Shown here piece by piece: positions 1 to 51,893 of a DNA stretch of 64,000 bases. This DNA comes from Mesotoga sp. Brook.08.105.5.1. Lineage in GTDB: Bacteria > Thermotogota > Thermotogae > Petrotogales > Kosmotogaceae. The notes under the pieces are model-generated. The model searched no databases, had not been told where the DNA came from, and worked only from the letters and a program-made list of their open reading frames with translations. The translations under genes were made by a program, and so were the position numbers. The stretch lies in assembly GCF_002752635.1 (NCBI RefSeq), contig NZ_AYTW01000027.1, positions 13,892 through 77,891 on the forward strand, given 5' to 3'. How positions within the stretch are numbered: position 1 is the first letter of the stretch; each line of letters begins with the position of its first letter.

Positions 1-328
1 CAGGGTCACGCCACCTGTATGCCGGTCACCATCTGGACAGTAAGCAGGTTTCCTCCAGACTTATCCCGGGATAGTTGGTCCTCCCGGTTTAGATGACACT
101 AAAGGTCCTTACGACACGTTCACGGTGGTTCACTTGTATTCGTCTCCTCTGGTACTCACCTGACGGGATCACTGTCCCGCCTTTTCCCGTAACGTTCACT
201 ACCATGGCTCTTTACCACAGCAGCTTACGGTGGTTTGAAGCCTCCACCTGCATGGCGGCTTCGAGGGGCCCTCCCTCATCTTCGATTAAGCATGGCTTGA
301 AGTTTCCTTCTTCGCCTTCTTGGCACAC
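1..328 (-). mobile_element. Group II intron, 5' portion (domain I), rest beyond left edge
   Basis: Read on the minus strand, a GUGUG 5' splice-site motif begins at about 328 and is followed by GCCAAGAAGGCG. Further blocks resemble domain I of bacterial ORF-containing group II introns: a GUGAACCACCGUGAACGUGU-like segment near 110-130, a UAGUGAACGUUACGG-like segment near 195-210, and UGGUGACCGGCAUACAGG near 15-35. No long reading frame explains this conservation. The maturase (LtrA-type) frame and the 3' half would lie left of base 1. The 5' exon on this strand is the intergenic DNA right of 328. Identification is by recalled pattern similarity, not by a covariance model. Confidence 0.75.
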
Positions 329-26552: not shown

Positions 26553-26818
26553 CACCATGCTAGGCGGGGAGCTGGCGGTTCCCTGTACCCGAAATCCGCC
26601 ATACGCGGGGCCGAATGCCTTCCGAGGCTTTGCCGGTTTGGTGTCGGTTTGTTTGAAGGTGTTGAGGATTGAGTCCTGCGCAATGGGAACTTGCGAACCT
26701 GGTCAGGTCCGGGAGGAAGCAGCCATAAGCAAGCACTCCCGTGTGCCGCGGGGCCGCTCAGTCTGAGCCGGATGGCAAATACGGCCAGGTTGTCAATGTC
26801 GACGGAGGATGCATGGTG
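26553..26818 (+). ncRNA. ffs: Signal recognition particle RNA, large (Alu-containing) form
   Basis: This is the 4.5S/scRNA homologue that assembles with Ffh to target membrane proteins. The SRP54-binding domain is plain: GGTCAGGTCCGGGAGGAAGC followed by AGCC, with the flanking TCCTGCGCAATGGGAAC. The 5' part GCTAGGCGGGGAG...CCCTGTACCCG...GGGCCGAAT is the Alu domain of long Bacillus/Thermotoga-type SRP RNAs. The two ends pair (CACCATGC at 26553 with GCATGGTG at 26811). The length of 266 bases fits the large form. No protein is encoded; the frames crossing it are incidental. It lies in tandem between a PurH-like gene and a peroxiredoxin gene. Confidence 0.96.
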
Positions 26819-33745: not shown

Positions 33746-34999
33746 TCAGGTGTTCTTCGAGAATCTTCTTGCAGCGAGTCTTATGCCAATGGCGCCAAGA
33801 GGGGCCGTTGTAAGGATTGATAGAAACGAAACCGAGAGTATCACATCTCCGTAAGCAACCCCCATTGCCAGGGATATTGCCCCTACTGCTGCCTGAACAG
33901 TTGTTTTGGGTAAATATGAAATCATACAGAATAGTCTTTCACGTAGATCTAGTCTTGACCGATGGTTGCCGCCAAGACACCTGCTCTTCTAAATGTGTGC
34001 TCCAAGACTATTATAGCAAGTTCATTAACCACGAGTCCCTTACCGCGTTTATGTTCACACTGGCACCCACAAGCACGAAGAGGAAGAGCTCGGCGACCAC
34101 CCATATTCTCTCCATCTTTCCAGATATTCGATCGGCGGCGTCTGGGAGCTTCTCTCGGAGGATAAAGCCGATTGCCATCACTTCCAGCAAAGTCGCCACC
34201 GGCAAGAAGTTTTCCACTTTGTGGAAAATGAATGCAACCGAAAGCATCAGAAGAACCTTCATTGTATCTCTAGTGTGGAACTTCCTGAAAAGGAGGCTGA
34301 AAAGAAACCCGATTAACGCTCCCAGAAAGATACCGAGAATGATCTCCACCGGTACCATAAGCAGGGACCATCCTGTACTGATGTCCTGACCGCTCTCGAC
34401 CCCCAGAAAGACTTAAAGAGAGTGATGGCCACAACATCGTCTATAGAAGCGGCGGCAAGAATTGTCGAAGGTATCTCGTTTCTCTTTCCGAAGTTCTTCT
34501 CCTTAAGTTTGAACATCTCAGGAACAACTACCGCAGGTGAAACCGCTGCTATTATGAATCTAAGCATCCCGCCCTGAAGTAGACTCAAATTCAGCAGAAA
34601 GTGAGACAAGATCATTATTGAAAAGCTCTCAAAAAGACCCGGAATGAAACTCAGGCTTCTACTATGTCAACAGATATAAGAGAGACAGACTGAAAGGATC
34701 AAGACGAAGAACACAGGGCAGGTCTTCTTAATGACTCTTCGATTCAATCCAAGTCCGGCTCGCATGAGAATAACTATCAGTGCCAGAAGTCTGACCTCTG
34801 CCGAGATAGACAGAAGAGTCGAATCGATAGTATTGAGAAGGCTAAGACCAAGAATCACTCCAAGCATAACAAGGCCGATCAAACCGGGTAGATTGATTCT
34901 GTCGAATAGTGACAGGATAACGATAGAGAGGATGATAATCGCAGAAACTATCAGCCAAAAAAGCGGTTCTGGAAGACTGTTCTCCAAGGCAAGCTTCAT
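33746..34999 (-). pseudogene. Cation:proton antiporter (CPA/NhaP-like), multiply broken
   Basis: Minus-strand pieces assemble into a roughly 415-codon antiporter. The N-terminal helices (INLPGLIGLVMLGVILGLSL) run to RAGLGLNRRVIKKT. An in-frame TGA near 34667 sits inside about 20 unexpected residues. Then follow LSFIPGLFESF, AAVSPAVVVPEM (the conserved core helix) and ASIDDVVAITLFK. A one-base loss in a T run near 34413 shifts the frame to GVESGQDISTGWSLLMVPVE. Further shifts near 34029 and near 33950 lead to MISYLPKTTVQAAVGAISL and the end at 33746. The intact protein would exchange Na+ or K+ for H+. With at least four lesions it is clearly non-functional unless the assembly is poor. Confidence 0.85.
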
Positions 35000-35062
35000 T
35001 GCCTAGAGAATTATATAGTCCATGCGTTATACTGTCAATGACCAGTGAACGGAGGTGATCTA

Positions 35063-36313: not shown

Positions 36314-37246
36314 ATGAGAATCACTGTCGTTCACGACACGACAATCGATTTTCATCATGAAGAGATGGTCAGGAGTGTTGTTAGTTCACTCGAGAATAGT
36401 TTTGAAGTCGATTCCAGACCATTCGAGATCGATGCTGTTAGCGGACTTAGAGGCACTGATCTCGTGTTCAATCTCACTACCGGCAGGGGCAGTGCAGAGA
36501 GGCAGGTCCATCTTCCGGCCGTGCTGGATCTTCTGGGAGTACCCTTTACCGGCTCCGGTGCTACGGCGAACGCTCTCTGTATAAACAAGGCGCTCACAAA
36601 GTTGATCATGAAAGCCTATGGAATATCCACTCCCGAATTCTTTTCGGTACGTCCCGGAGATACCGCCGACAACCTGCCGTTCAGTCCGGCAATCGTCAAA
36701 CCCGTTAAGGAAGGCGGAGCAAAGGGTATCTGGGAGGACTCGGTCGTAGAGAGAGTTGATGACATGCAGAAAGCTGTTTCACGTATTCACGAGAGATTTG
36801 AACAGCCCGCTCTGGTTGAGAGGTTCATTGAAGGAAGGGAGTTCACCGTTGGGATTGTTGGAAGTGAAGTACTCCCGATCATGGAAATAGATTTCTCGTC
36901 GCTGCCAGATCACCTTGAAACTTTCTATTCCTACAGGGTGAAACAGTTCCACGGTGACGAGACGAATTACATTTGTCCTGCGAAGATCTCACAGAGAGAG
37001 GAAACAGCTATAAGCGAGCTTTCGATGAGAGTCGTCCAGGTGCTCGACTTGAAGGACTATTGCCGTATCGATTTGAAGATTGACGACGAAGGAAAGATCT
37101 ACTTCCTAGAGGTCAATTCCCTTCCTCTTCTCGTACCTGATTACTCAGATATCGTCAAAATGGCCGAGGCGAGAGGGTGGAGCTACGGTGATCTCATTAA
37201 CAGGATTGTCGCTTCAGCAATAAGTAGATATGGAATCGGAGAATAA
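36314..37246 (+). CDS. D-alanine--D-alanine ligase-like ATP-grasp protein
   Basis: A 310 aa ATP-grasp ligase. The N-terminal domain has VFNLTTGRGSAERQVHLPAV and the Ddl-like FTGSGATANALCINKALTK. The ATP-grasp core has the lysine in PAIVKPVKEGGAKGI, then ALVERFIEGREFTVGIVG, and the metal-ligand region YCRIDLKIDDEGKIYFLEVN. It joins a carboxylate to an amine through an acyl phosphate. It is shorter and more divergent than true Ddl (about 330-360 aa), so it may make another dipeptide or amide. GGGAGG precedes the ATG. The next gene starts 17 bases inside its 3' end, so they are likely co-expressed. Confidence 0.85.
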   Translation: MRITVVHDTTIDFHHEEMVRSVVSSLENSFEVDSRPFEIDAVSGLRGTDLVFNLTTGRGSAERQVHLPAVLDLLGVPFTGSGATANALCINKALTKLIMKAYGISTPEFFSVRPGDTADNLPFSPAIVKPVKEGGAKGIWEDSVVERVDDMQKAVSRIHERFEQPALVERFIEGREFTVGIVGSEVLPIMEIDFSSLPDHLETFYSYRVKQFHGDETNYICPAKISQREETAISELSMRVVQVLDLKDYCRIDLKIDDEGKIYFLEVNSLPLLVPDYSDIVKMAEARGWSYGDLINRIVASAISRYGIGE

Positions 37247-38519
37247 GGAAGTCTATGAAGAGATACTTGATTACATAAGACAGATCCCTGTGATCGACAC
37301 ACATGAACACCTGGTCCACTCTGAAGATTTGCTCCTGGGGAGAGACGACGTTCTTCAGGAGTTCCTTCTTCACTTTATGAGCTCTGATATGATTTCTACT
37401 GGACTTAAAGCCGAGACTCTAGGAACTGCCAGAGATAAGAAGAGAGATATACTTGGACGCTGGGAACTGATAGAACCACACTGGGAGTTTTGCCGACATA
37501 CCGGTTACGGCAGGGTTCTCGATGATTCGGTTAGAGAGATATACGGGATCGACGGAATAAAAGGTTCGACCATAGAGGAGCTCGGAGAGAAGTTCAGGGA
37601 GGCAAACAGACCGGGACACTTGAAAGAAATCCTGAAGGATCTCTGTAACATAGAACTTGCGATAATAGATCCCTGGACCAGCCGATTCGAATGAGACAGG
37701 AGCCATTTCAGGAGGGTCTGGCAGCCACAAAACTACATAATGCCAATGCCACCTGAATTCGATATAGTAGGATGGCTGGAGGAGACCTACGCCGTAGAAA
37801 TAAGATCGCTCAGCGACTGGCTAGAGGTTTTCGAAAGGGAGCTGGATGAGAATCTGGCAAATGGCATCATTGGTCTGAAGAGTGTTATTGCTTATCAGAG
37901 GCCGATTAGATTTGAAGAAGTGAGTTTTAAAGACGCTGCAATCGTGTTTCAAAAGGCTCTGAAAGAGAGAACCGAGAAGTGTGTGTATGGAGACAAGAGT
38001 CTAGTTCTACCCAAAGTAGTGCAGGATTATGTGATGCATCTTATAATGTCTGCAGCGAATGAACGTGGAGTTTTCGTTCAGTTTCACACCGGTTTGCTGG
38101 AAGGAAATCGTGGAATGTTAAGCAACTTGAACCCCGAGCTTCTCGAGAACCTGTTTCTCAAGTATCCGGGAGTGAAATTCGATCTCTTTCACATTGGATA
38201 TCCTTACTGGGGAGTGACTGCGGCCCTTGCCAGGACCTATCCAAACGTCTTCATCGACATGTGCTGGTCTCACATCATCTCGCCAATTTCTTCGCGGAAC
38301 GCCTTGAGCGAATTCCTGGATGCAGTGCCGTTCAACAAGATATCCGGCTTTGGCGGGGACTATGCAATCGTCGAAGCGATCTACGGGCACCTTAAGATGG
38401 CAAGAGAAAATATCGCGAGAGTTCTGGAGGAGAAGATTAGTGAGAAGACTGTAAAGCTCTTACAGGCGATGATGATTGCCGAACGAATTCTCCATAACAA
38501 TCCGAAAAAATCCTCCTGA
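37230..38519 (+). pseudogene. Amidohydrolase-family gene interrupted by an in-frame UGA
   Basis: One continuous reading frame of 430 codons is interrupted only by TGA at 37692-37694. Before it, residues include VIDTHEHLVH, the H-x-H metal motif of the amidohydrolase superfamily. After it come QFHTGLLEGN, the FHIGYPYWG region and GFGGDYAIVE, giving later metal ligands and catalytic Asp. No frameshift occurs across the stop: SRFE-(UGA)-DRSHFRR. A nonsense mutation is the simplest reading (from CGA, TGC, TGT or TGG); recoding as Cys/Sec is the less likely alternative. The usual family length of about 400 aa matches the whole span. It overlaps the ATP-grasp gene by 17 bases. Confidence 0.8.
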
Positions 38520-39348: not shown

Positions 39349-41166
39349 TTATGGCACGTAATTGACATCCGTGGCCCACAAGCTTATGTTGTCGAACATG
39401 ACGTAAGACAAAACGCCATTGCTCGTAGTCATCCTAACTCCATTTGTGCCCGCTGACACAGGACTATAGGTAAAACTCTTCTTGAATAAATCGTTTACGT
39501 ATACTGCCGCGTTTCCCGTTGTGTGATTAAAGATCACCTTCACTTTGTACCAGACTCCAGGTGAGATATCCATCACTTTCTCGGAATGGTAGGAACCACC
39601 GGAATTTGTCCAGCAGATTATCGCCTGACTTCCTCCTAGGTATCCTATTCCTGTGTATGCATTAGTGTTGTTCGGCCCAATCCAGCCCCATTTGTTTGTT
39701 GTGGAGGAGCTCAGCCTAACGTCGTACTCTAGATAGCCAAGCTTTATAGGTTTCACCGATGAAGTGTAGACCGTGGAGTAACCTCCAGTTCCACCGTAGA
39801 AGGCGATGACTTTACCGTGACCGGTGATCGTTGTAATGACTGGATTAGGCACACTGCCAGACTCAGTGTAGTACCACTTCCCGAATGAACCTGTGATGGT
39901 GCCTGTAGAATATGTCTCAAAATTCTCTCCAAAGGCTTTTGTTGGCGCAGTGCGGAAACTCCAGATGGGGCCGGTCTTAGTGGCTCCTTTACTGTCTATC
40001 GCGACAATCCGCCAGTAGTAATTAGTCGAACTACTCAAAGTGCCGGTAGGGTAAGTAGTCGTACTCCTGTTTGTTTTGAACACAAGAGCCGTTGGAGAGG
40101 TACCTAAATACACATCATATGTAACTACATCGCCGTCTGGATCTCCCCCGATCCAAGAGAGTGTAAGATTGGCTGGCTGTGTAAGTGCCCCACTGACAGG
40201 AGTAGGATTCGAAGGGGTATTCGGTGGGTTGTTTATTCCACTTGGATTGATTGTTATATCGAATGTCTGGTCGGTTTGGCCTCCATTTCCATCGTTTGCT
40301 CTGATCGTTGCGTTTCTTGTTCCTGAGTCACTCAATAACGGAGAATAAGTGAAGGTGCTACCTGCGACTGCTCCAACCCCGGCTACTCTTGAGAATGTAA
40401 GAGAATCCCCATCGGGATCATTCGCGAATGTGGCGATGTCCAGTGTTAATGTCGTTCCGGCTGTAACATATTGCGGGGAAGGTATCGACAATTCGGGAAC
40501 TCTGTTCTTATTAGTAACGGTCACTGAGAAACTTGTCGTCGCCTCGGCCCCTTTTGTGTCAATAGCTCTCAAAACAACACTGTAGACTGCCGATTCTTCA
40601 AAGTAAATTGCTGCATCCTCATAGGAGGGAGAGTACTCATAGTTGTTTCCGTCAATCTCACCGGGACCTTCAAGAATATCGAATGTAAGAGCATCTCCAT
40701 CCGGGTCGCTAGCGTAGGTTGTAAGAAGAACTGTAAGAGTGGAACCCTCCAGAACAGTTTTATTTGGAATCGTTATCCAGACTGGAGGCCTGTTCGTGGG
40801 CATAACCGTGACGTTGAAACTTTCGCTTGCCGTTCCGCCCTTTCCGTCGTCTGCGGTTATCGTAACTGCATATACCGCTTCTTCCTCGAATTCAATTGCA
40901 GATTCACCGATGCCCGGAGTGTAGGAATATAGACCGCTAACTACGCTTCCCTTTCCTGTTACCGAGAAGCTCAAGGCATCGCCGTCTTCATCTGAGACGT
41001 GATCGCTCAGAAGGATTTCTAGGGTTTTGGTTTCTTCCACAGTCTGATCTCCTATTGGAAGAAACCAGACCGGAATCTTGTTTGGCGGGTTGAATGGACA
41101 TGCAGACAGCAAAAGGATAAGGAAAACTACAGGTAGCAAGACAAGACGGTTCTTTTTCAGAAGCAT
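39349..41166 (-). CDS. Surface lipoprotein with tandem cadherin/Ig-like, FN3 and C-terminal lectin-like domains
   Basis: A 605 aa lipoprotein. The signal peptide ends in the lipobox LLLSAC (Cys about residue 23). Three similar domains of about 95 residues follow, each with a DPDGDALTF-type calcium-binding-like turn (DEDGDALSF, DPDGDALTF, DPDGDSLTF). Next comes a fibronectin type III domain (PSNPTPVSGA...DPDGDVVTYDVYLG...WSFRTAP). Last is a beta-rich domain with features of LamG/concanavalin-like folds (FETYSTGTITGSFGKWYY, VMFDNISLW). It probably binds carbohydrate or another cell. The ATG at 41166 is chosen because GGGGGGTG lies eight bases upstream. The domain repeats differ by many residues, so they are old duplications. 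Confidence 0.85.
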   Translation of the reverse strand: MLLKKNRLVLLPVVFLILLLSACPFNPPNKIPVWFLPIGDQTVEETKTLEILLSDHVSDEDGDALSFSVTGKGSVVSGLYSYTPGIGESAIEFEEEAVYAVTITADDGKGGTASESFNVTVMPTNRPPVWITIPNKTVLEGSTLTVLLTTYASDPDGDALTFDILEGPGEIDGNNYEYSPSYEDAAIYFEESAVYSVVLRAIDTKGAEATTSFSVTVTNKNRVPELSIPSPQYVTAGTTLTLDIATFANDPDGDSLTFSRVAGVGAVAGSTFTYSPLLSDSGTRNATIRANDGNGGQTDQTFDITINPSGINNPPNTPSNPTPVSGALTQPANLTLSWIGGDPDGDVVTYDVYLGTSPTALVFKTNRSTTTYPTGTLSSSTNYYWRIVAIDSKGATKTGPIWSFRTAPTKAFGENFETYSTGTITGSFGKWYYTESGSVPNPVITTITGHGKVIAFYGGTGGYSTVYTSSVKPIKLGYLEYDVRLSSSTTNKWGWIGPNNTNAYTGIGYLGGSQAIICWTNSGGSYHSEKVMDISPGVWYKVKVIFNHTTGNAAVYVNDLFKKSFTYSPVSAGTNGVRMTTSNGVLSYVMFDNISLWATDVNYVP

Positions 41167-41778
41167 TCTAAACACCCCCCATACTTAACAATTTCAGCGG
41201 TTTTTGAAGTCAACTGTTCCTGTAGTTTCAGTATATTTCACGGCTGCTCGACATTATCTTTCGATACGAAGATTCCAAATAATAAGAATGCCAATCGGAT
41301 TTGTTTCGAAAAGAGCATGTAAGTTTCCTTAATTACGCCAATATGGTTAACTTGCTAAGTGCGAAACTAAAGACTAATCATAAAGACATCATCTAAGGGA
41401 GACTAAGATTCGACAGATACAGACTCATCTGGCTTAACGGTTCAAGCGGTTACCTGAAGCCCTTACCAGGAATGATAAATAAGTCTAGACAAATCACTCA
41501 GAATTATGATATTGCGTTTTGATTTTGGTTTGAAGAGAAAGTGTAAATCTGCAATAATTGAAAAGTTGCTAAACACTTTCAGAAGATAGTTTTGAAAGTT
41601 ACAGCGGTCATTCCTTCAAAGAACTTGGGGCACGCGTACGTTTCACTTTATTGCTGTCCTTAAAGAGCTCATCATTACCCACATGATGTTCTCTGGAACC
41701 CATCTCATCATCTCGTGGTTTTTAACTAAGACCGACCCCGGACGCGGAGTGTCAACGATGAACCGCTCTTCTGCTCTT
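41167..41778. other. AT-rich gene-free stretch
   Basis: I see no gene, RNA or obvious terminator in these roughly 600 bases. Reading frames are short and broken. It separates the lipoprotein gene (leftward) from the fold-back repeat. Confidence 0.6.
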
Positions 41779-42264: not shown

Positions 42265-43476
42265 ATGACTTCGCGAGATAGAGTGTTGAAAACGTTGAAA
42301 CACCGCGAACCTGACCGTATTCCTATCGATCTGGGAGGAATGAGGTCGACCGGCATTCATGCTAAAGCTTACAAGAAGCTTGTAGATTATCTCGGTTATT
42401 GTGATCTTTCAGTAAGGGTTTTCGATATTCATCAGATGCTTGCCTTTATCGATGAGGAGATCAGGAGAGAAGTACATTCCGATGTGATCGAACTCAAGAG
42501 ACTGAACGGAGGCTTTGAAACTAGAATCGATTCCTGGATAAGGAGAGACATCTTTGGAGATGGGTCGAGATACCTCTTTCCAGATGGTTTCGACTTCAAA
42601 GTGAAAGAGGACGGTTCGCTAGCAGTCGAGAGGAACGGTGTCGAAGTCGCGAGAATGCCCCGAGGCGGCCATTACTTCGACAGGAGTTACTTTCCCCTTG
42701 CCCAGGCCGAGAGCAAAGAGGAGATCTCGGCTCTTGTTCTGCCAAAACTGACTGACGAGGAAATAGAGTTCCTGAAAGGACAGCTCTCGGGAATACGTGA
42801 GTCAACAGACTGCGCCGTAATCGGGGCTTTCGGGGGAAACTTCCTCGAGGCGGGCCATTCAATGTTCGGGTACCAGGAGTTCATGGAGAGGCTGATTACC
42901 GACCGGTCTCTTATGGAGTTCTTTCTCGACCGGCTCCTCGAAACCTATATTGTAGATCTGGAAAAGTATCTCTCTAACGTGGGAGACGATATAGATATTA
43001 TTCAGATTGGCGACGATTACGGCACCCAGGAAAATACGGCGATATCGCCCCGGATTTTCAGATCTGTCTTCAAACCCAGACTGAAAAACCTGTGCGACTT
43101 CATTCACATTAAGAAACCCGATCTGTTCATCTTTCTTCACTCCTGCGGGTCCGTCTATCCCTTCATACCAGATTTCATAGAAGCCGGGGTTCAGATCCTG
43201 AACCCGGTTCAGACTAACGCGAAGAATATGGAGCCGGAAAGGCTGAAGAAGGAATTTGGAAGAGATATCGTCTTCTGGGGAGGAGGATGTGACACACAGC
43301 ACGTCCTGCCTTTCGGAACGCTCAAGGAATTGGAGGACGATATTCGCTGGCGCATCGACATTTTCTCTCCGGGCGGAGGCTTTGTCTTTGCTCCTATCCA
43401 CAACATTCAGGCCGAAGTATCACCCGAGAAGATCTTCAGACTTTTTGAATGCGCTTACGAATATGGTTCTCGATAA
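42265..43476 (+). CDS. URO-D family methyltransferase-like protein
   Basis: A 403 aa protein with the uroporphyrinogen-decarboxylase barrel as used by corrinoid methyltransferases. The opening TSRDRVLKTLKHREPDRIPIDLGG is characteristic of the MtaA/CmuA-like group. It has a zinc-type HxC in FLHSCGS and a third ligand cysteine in WGGGCDTQ, the usual H-x-C...C set. These features favour methyl transfer over heme synthesis; true HemE lacks these Cys. It may demethylate a substrate to a corrinoid protein. It converges on the minus-strand methyltransferase operon; the corrinoid protein is 8 kb away at 51.3 kb. Upstream AGGAGAGA is a moderate ribosome binding site. Confidence 0.82.
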   Translation: MTSRDRVLKTLKHREPDRIPIDLGGMRSTGIHAKAYKKLVDYLGYCDLSVRVFDIHQMLAFIDEEIRREVHSDVIELKRLNGGFETRIDSWIRRDIFGDGSRYLFPDGFDFKVKEDGSLAVERNGVEVARMPRGGHYFDRSYFPLAQAESKEEISALVLPKLTDEEIEFLKGQLSGIRESTDCAVIGAFGGNFLEAGHSMFGYQEFMERLITDRSLMEFFLDRLLETYIVDLEKYLSNVGDDIDIIQIGDDYGTQENTAISPRIFRSVFKPRLKNLCDFIHIKKPDLFIFLHSCGSVYPFIPDFIEAGVQILNPVQTNAKNMEPERLKKEFGRDIVFWGGGCDTQHVLPFGTLKELEDDIRWRIDIFSPGGGFVFAPIHNIQAEVSPEKIFRLFECAYEYGSR

Positions 43477-43521
43477 TACTCGCTGAAGAAGCTGCTCTTC
43501 TTCTGAACCTGATGTATTGTA

Positions 43522-44478
43522 TTATGACCGAAAATTCCTGCCGGCCCTGAAGAAGGCGGCGATGTTCTCATGAGGAGTCTCCAGTGGAATATCACAGCCG
43601 GAACTCAAAATGAAGTTGGGAACGTCCTTCATTTTCTCGAGAAGTTCTGTAGTTTCTCTCTCGACCTCCTCTCCGTTTGACTGAAGGAAGACCTTAACCG
43701 GATCTATGTTGCCTATAAGAAAAACATCTTCGGGAATTCTCTCCGCCGTATCCTTCAGGTCCACCATGCTGTCAAGGCTCAGTCCGTAGGCGCCGCTTGC
43801 ACCCATAGGTTCTACTATGTGTTCCGTGTCTCCGCAGATGTGATAAATTAAAGGTTTTGAAAGTTCCGATCTGAGCTTTTCAAAATATGGAAGCGCGAAA
43901 CGTTTGAACTGTCTCTTGGATAAGAGCACCGCAGTCGGTTCAAGCACGGCTATCGTGTCCGTACCGTGGTCGATTAGCGCTCTGGAGTATTCACCTACAA
44001 CCCTTGCGCAAAAGTCTACTACGCTCTCTGCAAAATCCGGCTCTTCTATCAGCTTCATACAGAGATCTGTAACCCCAACCAGTTCTCCTGCAAGGCTAAG
44101 TGGACCGATAACGTAGCTGCCCTTCATTCCCGGCAGTTCTCTCGCCATCTTATCTGCAACTTCTGTGAAGATCCTCATTCTGCCGGATACTCCGCTCCAG
44201 GAGTTTTCGACAGAGGCCAGCTCGTCGCGTCCCTTTATTGGATGTTCCTTAACGAAGGGATTGTCATCCTCAGGGAAACCGATCTCCATTCCCAACGCCT
44301 CGGCTTCGACTGTCAGGTCCATCATGAAGAAGATCCCGTCGGGCTGAAACTCTTCCATAAGCTTCGACAAAGACTTGAACTGGATTTCCACGTTTGTGAG
44401 ATTCTCTTTAAGCTTTGTTCCCGTCAGTCTTGCTCCCGGCGCGCCGAGCAAAGGTATGATTGATCTAGTGAAAGCCAT
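43522..44478 (-). CDS. MtaA/MtbA-like corrinoid methyltransferase (URO-D family)
   Basis: A 318 aa URO-D barrel of the MtaA/MtbA kind. The zinc site is HICGDT with the late cysteine in SSGCDIP, and GNIDPVK lies between, as in methylcobamide:CoM methyltransferases. The N-terminus FTRSIIPLLGAPGARLTG also fits. In methanogens these move methyl groups from a corrinoid protein to coenzyme M. In a bacterium without CoM the acceptor could be tetrahydrofolate. GGGAGGGA precedes the ATG. The gene is last of a four-gene minus-strand operon and starts three bases after the reactivase stop. Confidence 0.85.
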   Translation of the reverse strand: MAFTRSIIPLLGAPGARLTGTKLKENLTNVEIQFKSLSKLMEEFQPDGIFFMMDLTVEAEALGMEIGFPEDDNPFVKEHPIKGRDELASVENSWSGVSGRMRIFTEVADKMARELPGMKGSYVIGPLSLAGELVGVTDLCMKLIEEPDFAESVVDFCARVVGEYSRALIDHGTDTIAVLEPTAVLLSKRQFKRFALPYFEKLRSELSKPLIYHICGDTEHIVEPMGASGAYGLSLDSMVDLKDTAERIPEDVFLIGNIDPVKVFLQSNGEEVERETTELLEKMKDVPNFILSSGCDIPLETPHENIAAFFRAGRNFRS

Positions 44479-44481
44479 TCT

Positions 44482-46260
44482 TTATCCCTCCCTCAAGGCA
44501 AGATTCTCAACGAAGATCTCGTTGAAATCCTTTCTCCCAGATAGTTCTACATAATGTACCTCACTGCTGAGACTTTCCGCTCTCTCTCGAATCCCGCTAT
44601 CGAGAACTGCCAGAACTGCACCCAGACCGGCCGCATTGCCGACTGGTGAAACTCTTTCGACCGGTACTTTGGGAAGCATGCCTATTCGCAGGGCATTTTC
44701 GGGATCGATGTAGTTTCCGAAGGCTCCGGCAAGCAGAATCCGGTCTATATCTCGCGTATCGATGCCGGCCCGGTCCATCAAAACGGATACTCCTGCTCGA
44801 ATGGCAGCTTTTGCAAGCTGCACTTCACGAATGTCTCTCTTGTTTATCCGCACTTTTCCCGACCGGCCATCAAGTTCGAAGTGTTCTCCCTTGATTCTTC
44901 CCGATTCGTTGACTACTCCTGCATCTATCATTACGGCAATCGCGTCTATCAATCCCGAACCACATATTCCAGAAACATCAGAACCATCCACTGTACTGAA
45001 TCCGATACCTTCTCCATTGAACCACACATGATCGACCGCTCCCGGTCTGGCAATAGTTCCCTGGCTTATGTTGCCTCCTTCGAATGCCGGACCTGCCGCG
45101 GTGGAGCAAGTGAAGATTCTGCCGCCGCTCTTGAGGGCCATCTCCCCGTTGGTTCCGATATCCACAAGGAGAACGTTGCCGGAATCTTCGACAAATCCAG
45201 ACGAGAGAATACCGGCCGTGATATCCGAGCCTACATAAGCTGAGATTCCGGGCATTATGTAGATTTTCGAATTTGGAATGGACCCTTCTAAATCCAGTTC
45301 CCGCGACTCGAAGACCTTTCCTCCAGTGAATGCCGGTATGAAAGGTGAGGAGGCGATTCTCTCCGGGCTTATTCCGAGAAGGATGTGGATCATCGTCGTG
45401 TTTCCCACTATCGAAGTATCGTAGATCCTTTCCTTCGATACTGCTCCTCCTTTGCAAAGATCGTCAATCAGCCTATTCAGTGTTGTCAAAACTGCAGTTC
45501 TCAGCTCATCGATTCCTTCGTCTCTCTTGATTGCGTAGTCAATCCTGGAAATGACATCCTGGCCATATGCAGACTGGGGATTGGAAGCAGATCGAACCGC
45601 AACGATCTCTCCCGACTTAAGATCTGCCAGGTAAACTGCGAGGGTTGTCGTGCCTATATCGATTGCGACGCCGAAGATACCGCTTTCGTCCGAGAAAGGT
45701 AGTATGTCGATTACTTCGCTTCCGTACAAGACGGCCCTGCCTCTGTAATCCAGCTCCCTTATGACATGGGGAAGCCTTCTCAGAAGACTAAGTCTGTCAA
45801 TCCCCGGTCTTTCGGTAACGAGAGCACTCATCAGTCTTGAATAGTCTGAAGTCTGGTCATCAATATCCGGCCTACAAAGAGAAAACTCTTCGACTCTAAC
45901 CTGTGGAGATATCTCTCTTATCGAGGCCTTCGGAAGAGGCGGTTTGGAAACTGCGGAATTCAGAGCCGGGTCCTCTGTTTTGACTCTGACATCGGTCATG
46001 ACTTTGTACTGGCAGCTCAGCCTGTATCCGGCCGCAATTTCGTCTCGTGTCAGGAGTCTTGACTCGGTAAGGGTGAGCGGGAAGGCCTTGCTTCCTTCAG
46101 CCACGAGCGCTTTGCACTTTCCACAGTTTCCCCTCCCTCCGCATACGGCATTCACCTGCTGCGATTCCCTTCTTAAAACATCGAGCAGCAAATCGCCTCT
46201 CTTTGCCGTTACTGTTCTTTGCGAAGGCAGGAATGTGACCTTATACACAGCTTCTTTCAT
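44482..46260 (-). CDS. RACo-type corrinoid reductive activator (2Fe-2S + ASKHA, DUF4445)
   Basis: A 592 aa protein. The N-terminal plant-type ferredoxin domain has CGGRGNCGKC (Cx5Cx2C) near residue 40 and the fourth cysteine in RLSCQ near 79. After a linker, the ASKHA-fold ATPase region contains DIGTTTLAVYLADLKSG, VGNTTMIHILLGI, LLVDIGTNGEMAL and the DUF4445 end GAFGNYIDPENAL. Such proteins reduce inactive Co(II) corrinoid proteins to Co(I) at the cost of ATP. It is placed between a MetH-activation-like gene and an MtaA-like gene in one operon. GAGAGAGG precedes the ATG. Confidence 0.92.
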   Translation of the reverse strand: MKEAVYKVTFLPSQRTVTAKRGDLLLDVLRRESQQVNAVCGGRGNCGKCKALVAEGSKAFPLTLTESRLLTRDEIAAGYRLSCQYKVMTDVRVKTEDPALNSAVSKPPLPKASIREISPQVRVEEFSLCRPDIDDQTSDYSRLMSALVTERPGIDRLSLLRRLPHVIRELDYRGRAVLYGSEVIDILPFSDESGIFGVAIDIGTTTLAVYLADLKSGEIVAVRSASNPQSAYGQDVISRIDYAIKRDEGIDELRTAVLTTLNRLIDDLCKGGAVSKERIYDTSIVGNTTMIHILLGISPERIASSPFIPAFTGGKVFESRELDLEGSIPNSKIYIMPGISAYVGSDITAGILSSGFVEDSGNVLLVDIGTNGEMALKSGGRIFTCSTAAGPAFEGGNISQGTIARPGAVDHVWFNGEGIGFSTVDGSDVSGICGSGLIDAIAVMIDAGVVNESGRIKGEHFELDGRSGKVRINKRDIREVQLAKAAIRAGVSVLMDRAGIDTRDIDRILLAGAFGNYIDPENALRIGMLPKVPVERVSPVGNAAGLGAVLAVLDSGIRERAESLSSEVHYVELSGRKDFNEIFVENLALREG

Positions 46261-46461
46261 TACTTAACCTCTCTCCTCATCGGTATCCCCGATCTCATTT
46301 AACCTATGCATTCACTCGAGAGCGACACCGCAGCGGCTCCTTTTGGGCAACGGTCTTTCCGAATGGACAATGGCAAACTAAGAACTAATTTTTTCTGCTC
46401 CAACCTCTTGCCAGCAACTCCTAACCTCGCCAACCAGACTGATTTTGAAGACTGAGCCACT

Positions 46462-47160
46462 CTATTCAAGGGAGTTCCTCAGCTTCCGATCATACGGTGC
46501 GCTTCTGTAATGACAGTTAACCCTTCTGCAAACCATGCAGCTCCTGTAATCCTTCTCGGACTGAAATGCAATTCCCGAAATTGACTTCGTCGGAATCATG
46601 AGTAGAGATTCATTCAGTTCGACCCCAATCTCTTCCTTCACATTTCCAATCAAGGAAAACAATTCCTTCTGCTGCTGCAGAGCCCAGATCTCCGCATCTC
46701 CCGAGCCTGGAGACATCCATACGAGGTTTTCGATCAGGTTATTCCTGGAAATCTCGCTTCTTAGGAACCCGGCTGCCTCATGTAGTATGTGCTCCAGCAC
46801 ACTATCCCAGAGAAAGATCTTGAGAAAGTCTGTACGATCGAGCGGGAACTCGTAAAGTTCTCGTCCGGAAGTTATGACGAACGGGAAGACTCTGCCGACC
46901 GAATGGAGTTTTTTCGACAGGAGACGGCTCTCGAAGCGAACACCTTCTATTGTAACTTCGTCGTTGTTAACGCAGTCGACAAAGCAGGTCCTGTAGATCG
47001 CTTTTGGGTTTGCAGTCTCACGGGCATTCTCTACGAGCTCTCTGAAAGTCGTCTCTTCCTCAGAACCGGCTCTGATCCGCAGGCTTTCTACAAGCGAAGC
47101 CGCCTCTATCTTGAAAGGTATGCCTTTCAGGACTGAGATGTTTTTCTCGCGCTCTACCAT
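46462..47160 (-). CDS. MetH activation-domain-like protein
   Basis: A 232 aa protein resembling the stand-alone relatives of the cobalamin-dependent methionine synthase activation domain. It has an SPGSGDAEIWALQQQ block like the SAM/B12-pocket SPGYG, the PTKSISGI motif near 195, and a C-terminal four-cysteine tail, SCMVCRRVNCHYRSAPYD. In MetH this domain binds SAM and reactivates oxidised B12. Solo versions next to URO-D methyltransferases are presumed to service a corrinoid protein. It lies 33 bases downstream of a URO-D gene and 200 bases upstream of the RACo gene, all on the same strand. Confidence 0.82.
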   Translation of the reverse strand: MVEREKNISVLKGIPFKIEAASLVESLRIRAGSEEETTFRELVENARETANPKAIYRTCFVDCVNNDEVTIEGVRFESRLLSKKLHSVGRVFPFVITSGRELYEFPLDRTDFLKIFLWDSVLEHILHEAAGFLRSEISRNNLIENLVWMSPGSGDAEIWALQQQKELFSLIGNVKEEIGVELNESLLMIPTKSISGIAFQSEKDYRSCMVCRRVNCHYRSAPYDRKLRNSLE

Positions 47161-47193
47161 GAACCGACCGAATCGAAAGCCGATTCGACGTAT

Positions 47194-48252
47194 CTAGCGA
47201 GAGTTGAATTCATTTCCAGCCTCCAGCATTGCAAGGTAGTTTCTCACCGGGATGTAGTTGGCGACGGTGTTGCCCGTGCCTAAAGCATACCCGCCTCCCG
47301 GAGCGCATTGTTCGAGAGTCTCGAGTGTTCGATTCCTAACTTGCTCGACGGAGGCGTGACATAGAAAATCAACATCTATTCCTCCGAGGATCGAGATTCT
47401 CTTGCCCCATCTTCTTTTCACTTCTGGAACAGGCATTATCTGGTCTTCAAAGGAGTGTTTTGCATCGACTCCGGCTTCTATTATATCGTCCATTACAGTG
47501 GTTAAGTTGCCGCAACTGTGAAGGACAAAGGGTTTACCGTTTGCATGTACCACGCTGGCTATCTCTTTGTACCACGGGAAGACCAGTCTTCTGAGATGTC
47601 TCGGAGAGAAGATGGTCGATGTCTTGTATCCGAGATCGTCTCCAAAGCAGTAGGCGCCTACGCAATCCATTGAAGAGATGATCTTTGCGGCTCCAACGAG
47701 AACATGGCCGATCTTTTCGTTAAGAGTGTTGACCAGCTCGGGATCCTCGTAAACGGCCATGGAGAGATTCTCAACACCCATCAGGAAGCTGGAGTGCTCA
47801 AATGGCCCGCCGGAAGCCCCTCCAACTACTTTCATTCCTTCGGGAAGGTGCTCACCCAGCTTACGGAAAAGGTCGAAATCGACAGCTTCATCTGCCTTCG
47901 GCCAGTCCGCTTCCTGGATGTCTTTTAGGGTCTTAATGGGGCCGCCCTTTTCATTCATCCACTTCCTGCTTTCTCTGCGGTATGTTGCCGTGTCTTCACC
48001 ATGAATGTAATCGGGAGTGGGAAAGCGGGGAGCCTGATAGAAGGGAACGTAGTCATATCCCAGTTCCTCATAAAAACCGACCAGCTGGTCGAAGTACCTG
48101 TCGGGATCTTCTTCTAATACGGCAAGTTTGTAGCCCATCACTTCTTCCATTATTTTATCGTCCGCAAAGAGCTCAAAGAACGGAACTCTGCAAGGTTCTT
48201 CATTGCGCCTGAAGACGTCCAGAATCACTGAGAAATCGGGTGCCGGTTTCAA
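47194..48252 (-). CDS. URO-D family methyltransferase-like protein (variant metal site)
   Basis: A 352 aa URO-D barrel protein, first gene of the minus-strand corrinoid operon. It keeps HxC in VLHSCGN, but the position of the third zinc ligand, GGGCD in its neighbour, reads LGGIDVDFLC, so the cysteine is displaced by a few residues. The FGGxxGPFEHSSFLMG-like loop (GGASGGPFEHS) lies mid-barrel. It probably binds a methylated substrate or acts with the corrinoid protein. The TTG at 48252 is selected because GGGGGGA stands five bases upstream; the longer frame to 48276 lacks a ribosome site. Confidence 0.8.
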   Translation of the reverse strand: MKPAPDFSVILDVFRRNEEPCRVPFFELFADDKIMEEVMGYKLAVLEEDPDRYFDQLVGFYEELGYDYVPFYQAPRFPTPDYIHGEDTATYRRESRKWMNEKGGPIKTLKDIQEADWPKADEAVDFDLFRKLGEHLPEGMKVVGGASGGPFEHSSFLMGVENLSMAVYEDPELVNTLNEKIGHVLVGAAKIISSMDCVGAYCFGDDLGYKTSTIFSPRHLRRLVFPWYKEIASVVHANGKPFVLHSCGNLTTVMDDIIEAGVDAKHSFEDQIMPVPEVKRRWGKRISILGGIDVDFLCHASVEQVRNRTLETLEQCAPGGGYALGTGNTVANYIPVRNYLAMLEAGNEFNSR

Positions 48253-48442
48253 CTGAATCCCCCCCATTTTTTCCAAAGAGTCAAGTCTCCGGAGACTCCG
48301 ATCGTGTTTAAGTATATCGGGTACTCATCAAAAGCATTCTAGCATCAATCCATATCTCAAATAAAGCTCGACGAATGCGTACCTGCAGTTGCGGAAGAAA
48401 TAAAGGCTCGAAACAAGGCCTGAAAATCGGACCTGTCGGTAC

Positions 48443-48451
48443 TGTTATAAT
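48443..48451 (+). promoter_or_regulatory. Extended -10 promoter for the DUF2779 nuclease gene
   Basis: TGTTATAAT lies 63 bases before the TTG at 48514. It is the same extended -10 motif as seen at 5896, 8050, 8707, 52045 and 54847. Confidence 0.5.
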
Positions 48452-48513
48452 CATCATGAGACGTTATCTGAGTTCAGGCATTCAACACTCTTCAAGACTC
48501 GAGGTGAAGCTAG

Positions 48514-49995
48514 TTGAGACTTATTACTAATAAGATGTTTCTCGAGTACGATTACTGCCCTGTCAGGGGATGGATCGAGAGGAATGAACCTCGGGATTTC
48601 ACGCCGACAATCGCAGAAGATTTCAGGATGAAAGAGGGTCTAGATGTCGGCAGAAGGGCGAGGAGTCTCTTTCCTGAAGGTATTCTGATAGAGGAACTGG
48701 ATCCCTTTGAGGCCTCCTTCGTAACCGAGCGGATTATCGGAGACAGGCAGTCCGTAACACTGTTTGAACCCGCTTTCATTAGCGGCGATTTCGTCTCAAG
48801 GGCGGACGTTTTGAGAAAAGGGGCAGATGGACTGGATGTCTTCGAGGTCAAAGCGAGCCTAGCAGGTTCATCGAACACAAAGGACTACATAAGAGATCTC
48901 TCTTACACAATCTCAGTTATAGAAAGCTCGGGTTACAGAGTCAAGAAAGCATGTTTAATTATGGTCTCAAGAATGTATCGCAAGGGTGACGATGACCGGA
49001 AGCTCTTTGAGATCATAGACGTAACGGACGAGGTTTCGAAGCAGAAAACAGAGATAACGGCCAAACTCGAACTTGCATCAGTTATCTTGACTTCAACATT
49101 GATTCCTTCCGGCTCATTGGGGTACAAATGCAGAGACTGCGAGCATCTTCGAAGATGCTTCGGTCTGGACAGGAGACTCAGTATCTTTGAGCTTCCCAGA
49201 TTGGGTGCCGATAAGACAGATGCTTTGATCGAAAAGGGATACTTCTATCTGGAAGAGCTTCCGCGAGAGATACTTGGTGACAAACCTCTTCTGCAAAGAG
49301 TCTTTCGTGGAGCAAAAACAGGAGGGATAGTGATTGACAAGCCCGAAGAACTTCGAGAAAAGCTGAATAGTATGGAGTATCCGATAGGTTATCTCGATTT
49401 CGAGACTGCAGCTTCAGTTATTCCCCTGTATGATGGTCTGGCTCCCTACGAGGGGATCCCGTATCAGTATTCACTGCACATTCGAAGAAAAGACCCGGAA
49501 GTCCTTGAACACAGGGAGTTTCTCTTCGGCAATCCTTCGAGAGATGAAAGCCTCCTGCTCGCCGAAAGGCTGGTTGAGGACCTCAAGGACTGCAGAACAC
49601 TTATGGCGCACCATGCTTCCGTTGAGAGGAATATTCTGAGATGGCTGTCTAACAGATACAAAGACTATCCAGAACTTTCAGAACAGCTCATATCCTTCTC
49701 GGAGATATTTGTAGATTCGGAACTGCTTGTGAAAGACCACATATATCATCCCGACTTCGGGGGAAGCTTCTCAATCAAAAGGCTTCTTCCTGCACTTGTA
49801 GAAGGGGTTGGTTATGAGGGACTGTTCATCCATAACGGTGACGATGCCAGGTATGTTTTCGTGAATATGGCTCTGGGAAATTACAGAGAGCCCGAGGTAG
49901 AGAGAATAAGAAGAGATATGCTGGAGTACTGCAAGATGGATACACTGGCGATGGTAGAGATTCACAAATTTCTCTGCGATCTATTATCGGAATGA
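48514..49995 (+). CDS. DUF2779 / RecB-like nuclease fused to DnaQ-like exonuclease domain
   Basis: A 493 aa protein. The N-terminal half has a PD-(D/E)xK nuclease core: SRADVL (Asp) and DVFEVKAS (Glu-x-Lys). A lone N-terminal cysteine (YDYCPVRGW) and a later CRDCEHLRRC give the four-cysteine Fe-S arrangement of Cas4/AddB-type nucleases. The C-terminal half has YLDFETAASVIP, like the DxE of DEDD exonucleases, then LMAHHASVERNIL and a late EYCKMDTLAMV aspartate. The family (TM0106/DUF2779) is of unknown function; DNA processing is likely. No cas genes or CRISPR are in the window. The TTG at 48514 follows GAGGTGA. Confidence 0.82.
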   Translation: MRLITNKMFLEYDYCPVRGWIERNEPRDFTPTIAEDFRMKEGLDVGRRARSLFPEGILIEELDPFEASFVTERIIGDRQSVTLFEPAFISGDFVSRADVLRKGADGLDVFEVKASLAGSSNTKDYIRDLSYTISVIESSGYRVKKACLIMVSRMYRKGDDDRKLFEIIDVTDEVSKQKTEITAKLELASVILTSTLIPSGSLGYKCRDCEHLRRCFGLDRRLSIFELPRLGADKTDALIEKGYFYLEELPREILGDKPLLQRVFRGAKTGGIVIDKPEELREKLNSMEYPIGYLDFETAASVIPLYDGLAPYEGIPYQYSLHIRRKDPEVLEHREFLFGNPSRDESLLLAERLVEDLKDCRTLMAHHASVERNILRWLSNRYKDYPELSEQLISFSEIFVDSELLVKDHIYHPDFGGSFSIKRLLPALVEGVGYEGLFIHNGDDARYVFVNMALGNYREPEVERIRRDMLEYCKMDTLAMVEIHKFLCDLLSE

Positions 49996-50127
49996 GGATA
50001 CTGTTGATACAAATGTGAATCGTCAGCATACGACTTAATCGAATTATTTTCGAAGTAGAATAATCTGGTCATCAAATTAGGTTATTATGAATCATGCATA
50101 CTTTAGGCATCGAGAGGATGTGACGAC

Positions 50128-51189
50128 ATAGAAATCTTCAAGATAAAGAATCATGAGACATCGCTTCCCCTTATTCAAGGAGGAATGGCCGTAGGGATTT
50201 CTCTGGACAATCTGGCCGCTACCGTCGCTTCTGAAGGTGGAATAGGGGTTATTGGAACGGCAGGTATTGGTATGACGGTTGACGGTTACAGAAAGAACTT
50301 CAGGCAGGCAAGCATAGATGGCCTCAAGAATACCATAAGAAGGGCAAGGGAGAAGACAAAAGGGGTTTTGGGAGTAAACATTATGGTAGCCCTCACAAAC
50401 TACGCAGAGATGGTGGAAACGGCCGTGAAGGAGAAGATAGACGTGATCATCTCCGGCGCGGGACTGCCTCTTGATCTCCCCTCTTATCTCGATGATGGAT
50501 CGGAAACGGCTATAATTCCAGTGGTCTCATCTCTGAAGTCTGCGACCGTAATATTCAAGAGATGGTTTCGCAGGTACAGCTACGTCCCCGACGGCTTCGT
50601 TGTGGAGGGACCTAAGGCGGGCGGCCACCTCGGATACAGAGTCGAGGAGATCTTTTCTGAAGAGAGTTCTCTCGAAAAGACCGTACCTGAGATCAGAAGG
50701 TTTGTAGATCAGGTGAAACGTGATACTGGAAAAAATATTCCGTTGATAGCGGCCGGAGGGATATTCGATAGAGATGATGTCGAAAAAGCCTTCAAGCTCG
50801 GGGCCTCAGCAGTTCAAGTAGGGACGGCCTTTGTGGCCACGGAAGAATGCGATGCAGACTACAGGTTCAAGCAGGCATTCGTGAATGCTTGTCGGGAGGA
50901 TATAACCATTATCAAGAGTCCTGTGGGAATGCCGGGCAGAGCAATAAAAAACAAGTTTCTGGACGATGTTGAGCAGGGAAAGAAAAAGCCGTTTAAATGC
51001 TCATTTCAGTGCATAAAGACATGCAATTACAGAGAGGCGCCATACTGCATTGCAGAGGCGCTCATGAATGCCTGCAAGGGAGATCTGGAAAATGGCTTTG
51101 CCTTTACGGGAAGCGAAGGATACAGGATAGAAGGCATTACAACAGTGAAGAAGGTTATAGATAGACTATTCGGTGAAAACAGGCGCTAG
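50128..51189 (+). CDS. Nitronate monooxygenase-like FMN protein, apparent ATA start
   Basis: A 353 aa TIM-barrel flavoprotein of the nitronate monooxygenase/FabK-like family. The catalytic histidine lies in GPKAGGHLGY, with FMN-phosphate loops AAGGIFDRDD and GASAVQVGTAF. The C-terminal tail has cysteines in CSFQCIKTCNYREAPYC. The frame encodes IEIFKIKNHETSLPLIQGGM, the expected N-terminus with its FMN loop. However, the codon at 50128, nine bases after GAGAGGA, is ATA. The first standard start in frame is ATG 50185, which would discard that loop. I annotate the upstream codon as a rare AUA start or a mutated ATG. It lies 68 bases ahead of the corrinoid-protein gene and may be co-transcribed. 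Confidence 0.75.
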   Translation: MEIFKIKNHETSLPLIQGGMAVGISLDNLAATVASEGGIGVIGTAGIGMTVDGYRKNFRQASIDGLKNTIRRAREKTKGVLGVNIMVALTNYAEMVETAVKEKIDVIISGAGLPLDLPSYLDDGSETAIIPVVSSLKSATVIFKRWFRRYSYVPDGFVVEGPKAGGHLGYRVEEIFSEESSLEKTVPEIRRFVDQVKRDTGKNIPLIAAGGIFDRDDVEKAFKLGASAVQVGTAFVATEECDADYRFKQAFVNACREDITIIKSPVGMPGRAIKNKFLDDVEQGKKKPFKCSFQCIKTCNYREAPYCIAEALMNACKGDLENGFAFTGSEGYRIEGITTVKKVIDRLFGENRR

Positions 51190-51257
51190 CTCTCTTGATG
51201 TATCTTAAGAAGTCAGTGGTCTGTCTGCACCGCAAATAAATGTGGGGGAGGTTGAAG

Positions 51258-51893
51258 ATGGGAACCCTGGAGAAGATAACGAACGCGATCATCGAAACAA
51301 TGCCTGCTCAGGCAAAAGCTGCCACTGAAGAGGCTCTAGCGGAAGGCCTCAGCGCAAAGGAAATTCTGGATAGCGCACTTATCCCGGGGATGGATGAAGT
51401 TGGCAGGTTATTCAGAGAGGGCGAGTATTTCGTTCCCGAAGTTCTTGTTGCTGCAAAGGCGATGAACCAATGTATGGACCTTATTGAACCTCTTCTTGTC
51501 AGCGGAGGGGTCAAGAAGATCGGCAAAGTGATTGCCGGGACTATCGAGGGTGACCTCCATGACATTGGAAAAAACCTGGTGTGTATGATGCTTAAGGGAG
51601 CGGGCTTCGAAATAATCGACCTTGGCGTCGATGTGAAGCCCGAAGAGTTCGTTGAGGCAGCCGAAGGTGCGAAGCCGGATATTCTTGTTATTTCCGCCCT
51701 GTTAACGACCACAATGCTTAATATGCCCAGAGTGATAGAAGAACTGAAAAAGGCCGGCATTCGAGAAGAAGTAAAGGTGCTCATAGGTGGGGCGCCCGTG
51801 AGTCAAACTTATGCTGAGGAAATTGGAGCGGACGGTTATTCTCCCGACAGTGCCGGAGCCGTCGAACTGGCAAGGATGTTCGTATCTGGGTAA
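51258..51893 (+). CDS. Corrinoid protein (methyltransferase cognate, B12-binding)
   Basis: A 211 aa protein of the MtbC/MttC/MtvC type. The N-terminal helical cap spans about 1-85. The cobalamin domain has the lower-ligand motif EGDLHDIGKNLV (DxHxxG), followed by ISALLTTTM (SxL) and IGGAPVS (GG). It carries a methyl group on Co(III) between a substrate-specific methyltransferase and the acceptor enzyme. GGGGGAGG before the ATG at 51258 decides the start over an upstream ATG at 51240. It is the only corrinoid carrier seen in the window and so the likely partner of the three URO-D proteins and the RACo at 42-48 kb. Confidence 0.93.
   Translation: MGTLEKITNAIIETMPAQAKAATEEALAEGLSAKEILDSALIPGMDEVGRLFREGEYFVPEVLVAAKAMNQCMDLIEPLLVSGGVKKIGKVIAGTIEGDLHDIGKNLVCMMLKGAGFEIIDLGVDVKPEEFVEAAEGAKPDILVISALLTTTMLNMPRVIEELKKAGIREEVKVLIGGAPVSQTYAEEIGADGYSPDSAGAVELARMFVSG

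Follow-up and report, generated by a model that had tools for sequence, protein, structure and literature searches.

The corrinoid systems built around MtvB, OdmB, VdmB, MtoB and CdmB, all of which are members of the uroporphyrinogen decarboxylase (URO-D) superfamily (PMC13222342), combine a substrate methyltransferase of the URO-D fold with a small corrinoid protein and a reductive activator, and in bacteria the final methyl acceptor of corrinoid systems is usually tetrahydrofolate (PMC8630106). The type 1 mlp gene clusters described by Kountz and Balskus (PMC10418091) hold several URO-D proteins with a corrinoid protein and RACo/RACE and have no folate methyltransferase nearby; by definition their genes all point the same way, uninterrupted by any divergent gene, and include at least two Mlps with a His-Cys-Cys site. 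That site is the mark of S- and Se-methyltransferases, and one or both Cys are replaced in O-methyltransferases (PMC10418091). The subject here is a 64,000-nucleotide stretch of Mesotoga sp. Brook.08.105.5.1 (contig NZ_AYTW01000027.1; Thermotogota, Kosmotogaceae), called the window, in which three URO-D proteins (URODA, URODB and URODC), a corrinoid protein (CP), a RACo-type activator and a MetH-activation-like protein all lie inside 9.6 kb. We propose, at roughly an even chance, that they form a modular corrinoid O-demethylation system, with O-methylated sugars as the favoured substrates and a thiol as the methyl sink.

The gene set and its layout

Gene content, conservation, site residues and absences are observed directly, and the genes with their domain matches are given in Table 1. 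URODC, the MetH-activation-like gene, RACo and URODB follow one another in this order on the minus strand, with spacers of about 33, 201 and 3 bases, and because they are collinear and closely spaced the layout suggests one putative operon with URODC as its first gene. URODA, on the plus strand, runs towards its end. The CP gene starts 50 bases behind a gene for an NMO/FabK-type flavoprotein, about 3 kb from the putative operon and on the opposite strand, and DUF2779 and NMO genes interrupt the set; CP and URODA lie on the plus strand and the remaining parts on the minus strand. The earlier note on this DNA had listed these six parts within 10 kb as a corrinoid methyl-transfer set, with the carrier behind an NMO-like gene on the other strand; the parts and their coordinates were confirmed, and both domain matches and recurrent operons support the assignment.

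The 3.0-Mb genome has four URO-D genes, three of them in the window and the fourth on contig C21. The clustering of URO-D proteins with CP and the activators is beyond chance, because three of the four genomic URO-D genes are found here, their order is kept in congeners, and independent operons elsewhere join the same families. No cobalamin riboswitch was found in the window at the gathering threshold. On the other side of URODA, a 608-amino acid lipoprotein-like protein with repeated Ig/cadherin-like stretches is encoded at 39349-41175 (minus strand); it stands beside URODA in two congeners as well.

Table 1. Positions in the window of the corrinoid gene set and the adjoining flavoprotein gene, with profile matches
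Feature	Position	Strand	Match
URODA	42265-43476	+	PF01208, 69 bits
URODB	43522-44478	-	URO-D family, 200 bits
RACo	44482-46260	-	RACo_C_ter 247 bits, Raco_middle 189 bits, Fer2 38 bits; also RACo_linker
MetH-activation-like protein	46462-47160	-	PF02965, 26.8 bits (cut-off 25)
URODC	47194-48276	-	PF01208, 87 bits
NMO/FabK-type flavoprotein	50185-51189	+	PF03060, 183 bits
Corrinoid protein (CP)	51240-51893	+	PF02607 (B12-binding_2) and PF02310 (B12-binding); DLHDIG motif

The three URO-D proteins

URODB carries the site His213-Cys215-Cys295, and the motif IYHICGD...GCD is present in every URODB orthologue. The second Cys ligand is replaced in the other two, by His in URODA (His292-Cys294-His379) and by Asn in URODC (His253-Cys255-Asn336), and these residues are near invariant: all three are kept in 14 aligned close homologues of URODA (four distant ones have His-Asp-Glu at the ligand positions), and the homologues of URODC keep His and Asn in 70 of 70 and Cys in 69 of 70. 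Because the second Cys is missing, the site rule of PMC10418091 leads us to propose URODA and URODC as substrate:corrinoid methyltransferases (MTI) for O-methyl substrates, and URODB is proposed as an MtaA/Mlp-like methyl-corrinoid:thiol methyltransferase (MTII). URODB is the nearest of the three to MtaA; its family profile aligns with MtaA (4ay7) at 135 bits over most of its length with the HxC...C site kept, yet its best NCBIfam matches, PRK06252/MtaA/MtbA, reach 127-170 bits and so stay below the cut-offs of 244-600. In contrast to the coenzyme M methyltransferases MtaA and MtbA, it may use some other thiol as acceptor.

URODA and URODC are both predicted with high confidence to have the URO-D fold, as the AlphaFold model of the former (pLDDT 94) matches HemE/MtaA folds in Foldseek and that of the latter (pLDDT 95) has MtaA (4ay8/4ay7) as its nearest solved fold. 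In a tree with MtaA, CmuA and HemE as references, the two form one group (92/94) apart from URODB and from all three references, the URODC clade being supported at 100/100; the tree has long branches, that of CmuA among them, and places MtaA only tentatively. A profile-profile match between URODA and URODC gives an E value of 8e-38. CdmB, the only solved enzyme of the MtvB/OdmB type, resembles the URODC profile weakly (18 bits over about 110 residues) and gives no match to the URODA profile.

It had been argued in the earlier note that no MtvB-like enzyme is present, an argument that is invalid since MtvB and its relatives are themselves URO-D proteins. The suggestion drawn there, that one URO-D protein takes the methyl group from the substrate, holds in so far as one or two of them probably do so, with URODB instead of the thiol type. 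An identity with HemE was also tried and rejected: TIGR01464 gives URODB 86 bits against a cut-off of 303 and gives nothing for URODA or URODC, the RQAGR motif is absent from all URODA, URODB and URODC homologues, and HemE forms a separate 100/100 clade in the tree.

Relatives of these proteins were sought on mobile elements too. No URODB relative was found in the viral contigs searched, and a plasmid search for URODA and URODC relatives gave few, distant matches; one Chloroflexota plasmid has a single URODA-like gene amid sugar-isomerase and ROK genes. Some URODB-like proteins have a C-terminal thioredoxin-like fusion (URODBtrx; L040 7359-8732, L043 11835-13223 and L106 7112-8506), and in these the zinc-site His is replaced by Phe.

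The sites bear directly on a relationship with the type 1 mlp clusters, by which the set would demethylate methyl-S or methyl-Se compounds for selenium or methionine salvage. Such a relationship would explain the shared parts, namely several MtaA-like proteins, CP and RACo with no folate methylase (PMC10418091), as well as the His-Cys-Cys site of the most MtaA-like member. That site, however, is present in one of the three URO-D proteins only; URODA and URODC, without the second Cys, fall outside the MtaA-like branch and score 37-70 bits against SCMT models whose cut-offs are 235-600. The use of both strands and the unrelated gene between exclude the locus under the published definition, the genome has no selD match, and the window set adds the MetH-activation-like protein and has relatives in sugar operons. 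We consider this explanation unlikely.

The corrinoid protein, its activators and the methyl acceptor

The CP has B12-binding_2 and B12-binding domains with a DxHxxG motif and is thus of the methyl-carrier type (MtgC/MtbC-like), with the corrinoid protein 1y80 as the closest solved structure. No second methyl-transfer CP was found in the genome (it is the sole match at E<=1e-20), and there is one such protein per genome. RACo has a complete set of [2Fe-2S] N-terminal, RACo middle and C-terminal domains, with 445/800 bits for the AcsV model, and is on this domain evidence an ATP-dependent corrinoid reductive activator. The MetH-activation-like protein is a stand-alone, weak member of PF02965 that ends in an invariant C-x2-C-x4-C tail and also carries SPG and SxSG motifs; we propose it as a second factor for the reduction or reactivation of CP. 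In Thermotoga, methionine synthase is split into MetH and a stand-alone reactivation protein, TM0269; the Mesotoga locus likewise has a stand-alone MetH-activation-like protein by a corrinoid system, but there is no MetH here and its partner would be the small CP. The adjacency of the NMO-type gene and CP is kept in three congeners (L032, L033 and L035), and in G023 a GNAT gene precedes CP instead. Membership of the flavoprotein in the system is doubtful because it is a neighbour of CP in congeners but not elsewhere.

The search for an acceptor covered 17 genomes of the family, with T. maritima as a control that matched each of the four Pfam families searched. In none of the 17 was MTHFR, a MetE C-terminal domain, PF02574 (S-methyl_trans) or MetH found; most other Thermotogota encode a MetH of about 780 residues. 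Pterin_bind proteins in the family are of the FolP type only, and the sole one here is a full-length, single-domain protein of FolP size (277 bits). No corrinoid:folate methyltransferase was found; unlike the MtvB/OdmB-type systems, the genome shows no folate or pterin acceptor enzyme of the MtgA/MtvA/MtrH type. Handling of homocysteine or methanethiol is possible because Cys/Met pyridoxal-phosphate (PLP) enzymes are present in the genome. Since no folate acceptor route was found and URODB has a thiol-type site, folate is an unlikely methyl sink and a thiol, methylated through URODB, the likely one. Both the missing folate and methionine-synthase route and the sugar operons of the relatives, taken up below, had been overlooked in the earlier note.

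The same evidence can be read as a folate-independent methionine synthase, in which CP, URODB and the MetH-activation-like protein would methylate homocysteine with a methyl group brought by URODA and URODC from an O-methyl donor. It would fit the absence of MetH, MetE, PF02574 and MTHFR from the family, for the PLP enzymes, and for a MetH-activation-like gene inside an operon with a thiol-site enzyme, in line with the role of TM0269 as a stand-alone partner of MetH in Thermotoga. The complete genomes of two URO-D-free relatives (G019 and G021), however, lack the same enzymes, and the trait is therefore not needed for methionine there; moreover, this explanation is mostly a specification of the acceptor in the O-demethylation system preferred here. 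As a separate account it is improbable.

Substrate and sugar context

The fourth URO-D gene of the genome is a second URODA, URODA2, which lies on contig C21 among GH38 mannosidase genes in the order GH38-LacI-GH38-URODA2-GH38, and the URODA2-GH38-LacI arrangement recurs in G023, G028 and partly in G026. If URODA2 is a corrinoid enzyme it must use the CP of the window, because no other methyl-transfer CP was found in the genome. Relatives of the window genes elsewhere are found in operons for sugar uptake and breakdown: G006 and G007 have TrmB-URODx-sugar ABC-alpha-amylase-URODC-CP-URODBtrx-RACo (URODx being a very divergent URO-D protein), an Anaerolineaceae locus (L189) has LacI-SBP-ABC-URODC-URODx-amylase-esterase-CP-URODB, and a Peptoclostridium operon joins a sugar ABC transporter and GH123 to CP, a URODB relative and a remote MetH-activation-like protein. 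These operons, together with URODA2 among the GH38 genes, suggest an O-methylated sugar as the substrate, to which we give about one chance in three; the figure stays low because the glycosidase excess is modest and sugar genes are missing around several URODC-CP pairs.

Several observations weigh against the sugar reading. The window cluster itself has no glycosidase or sugar transporter alongside, the Peptoclostridium operon is also close to selD/yedE, and the URODC-CP pairs of Neomarinimicrobiota, Calditrichota and Bacteroidota lack sugar genes. The glycosidase excess (74 near neighbours of URODC homologues against 74 control genes) was counted at 80 URODC-homologue loci among the top 25 families listed, and is not taken as proof. 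URODA and URODC could also act on N- or S-methyl substrates. The fold models are without metal, and the ligand sites therefore rest on alignment. On the acceptor side, URODB could employ folate by a mechanism not yet described, and since URO-D-free members of the family are also without methionine synthases, methionine supply need not depend on the system. Methylamines and glycine betaine, which had been put forward as candidates, are poor ones because there is no MTTB-family enzyme; the absence of MttB-type proteins was borne out, with PF06253 in none of the 17 family genomes, that of the window included.

A methoxyaromatic O-demethylase system of the MtvB/OdmB type, with the peculiarity of a thiol acceptor, would draw on the same features, as MtvB, OdmB, VdmB, MtoB and CdmB are URO-D enzymes of the MTI class with CP and activator (PMC13222342) and the sites of URODA and URODC suit an O-substrate. 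The likeness to CdmB is weak, however, being confined to the URODC profile, the genome has no folate-type MTII, and several relatives lie inside sugar operons, which makes such a system distinctly improbable.

The recurrent sugar operon with URODx is regulated by TrmB (L106 4516-18260, L107, L037 and L114). There URODx lies next to an alpha-amylase gene and a gene in which binding protein and permease are fused, and a 378-381 amino acid protein of no assigned family is always beside it.

Recurrence in other genomes

The gene order is kept in the three congeners that have the full stretch (L032, L033 and L035), as it is in two others whose contigs are partial (L034 and L036). URODB and URODC are about 87-95% identical to their congeneric counterparts, and conservation of the whole stretch inside the genus is weak evidence of function. 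More distant operons carry greater weight. In G032, of another genus (L037), URODC-CP-RACo-URODB form one operon; in Neomarinimicrobiota (L182) the order is URODC-CP-MetH-activation-like gene-URODB, where URODB shares 47% identity over 315 residues and PF02965 confirms the third gene; and G020 has the single run GH38-URODC-URODA-GH38-CP-URODB2. URODC, CP and URODB-type genes are joined in operons of three Thermotogota genera, Neomarinimicrobiota and Anaerolineaceae. The URODC, CP, URODB-type and activator families belong together, because the operons of G032, L182 and G020 link them independently. The co-occurrence in related genomes that the earlier note wanted checked is thus clear, and its description of the system as scattered holds for this genus alone, the parts in G032 being a single operon.

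The activators vary between these loci: RACo is found without the MetH-activation-like gene in the G032 operon and the latter without RACo in the L182 stretch, the window has both, and relatives of the MetH-activation-like protein adjoin CP or URODB in L182 and L203. A chance neighbourhood of URO-D fold proteins that do not cooperate, to which the use of both strands, the orientation of URODA and the separate NMO-CP pair might point, is very improbable given the independent operons just described. In other Thermotogota (L103, L104 and L105, in G101, G102 and G100) a row of URO-D, CP, MtaB (PF12176, 582 bits) and RACo genes is seen, and this corrinoid cluster lies downstream of a DHDPS-family gene.

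Other features of the window

A fluoride riboswitch (34935-35012, minus strand, 38.6 bits), part of a group II intron (158-277, minus strand) and the large SRP RNA (26555-26816, plus strand) were also found. An amidohydrolase-type gene at 37230-38519 is broken into two frames of 154 and 259 amino acids, and a single 467-amino acid frame of this type is present at the corresponding position in L032 and L035.

The proposed system and its meaning

The O-demethylation system proposed here, for which we infer every reaction as well as the substrate class and the acceptor, would operate in the manner of a three-component O-demethylase. URODC and/or URODA would bind the O-methylated substrate and pass its methyl group to the Co(I) of CP, and URODB would move it from CH3-Co(III)-CP to a thiol, be it homocysteine, sulfide or another. 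RACo, with ATP and its [2Fe-2S] cluster, and the MetH-activation-like protein would bring oxidised Co(II)-CP back into service. More tentatively, and as an idea that we would sooner expect to fail than to hold, interchangeable URO-D substrate enzymes in different glycan operons may share one CP and a folate-free thiol sink for the anaerobic, B12-dependent removal of sugar methyl ethers.

No description of an anaerobic corrinoid removal of sugar methyl ethers, or of O-demethylation combined with a thiol sink instead of folate, was found in the literature searched, most subscription journals lying outside it. Nor was any such pathway found described for Thermotogota, as the earlier note had supposed, and the phylum is not mentioned in the paper on type 1 mlp clusters (PMC10418091).

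Many natural sugars are protected from breakdown by methyl ethers. The URO-D group concerned is large and mostly without assigned function, and the proposal, if true, would give a testable function to many genes of uncultured anaerobes that are annotated as uroporphyrinogen decarboxylase family. For the family to which Mesotoga belongs, where the searches turned up no known methionine synthase, the gene set implies a folate-free corrinoid methyl-transfer pathway.

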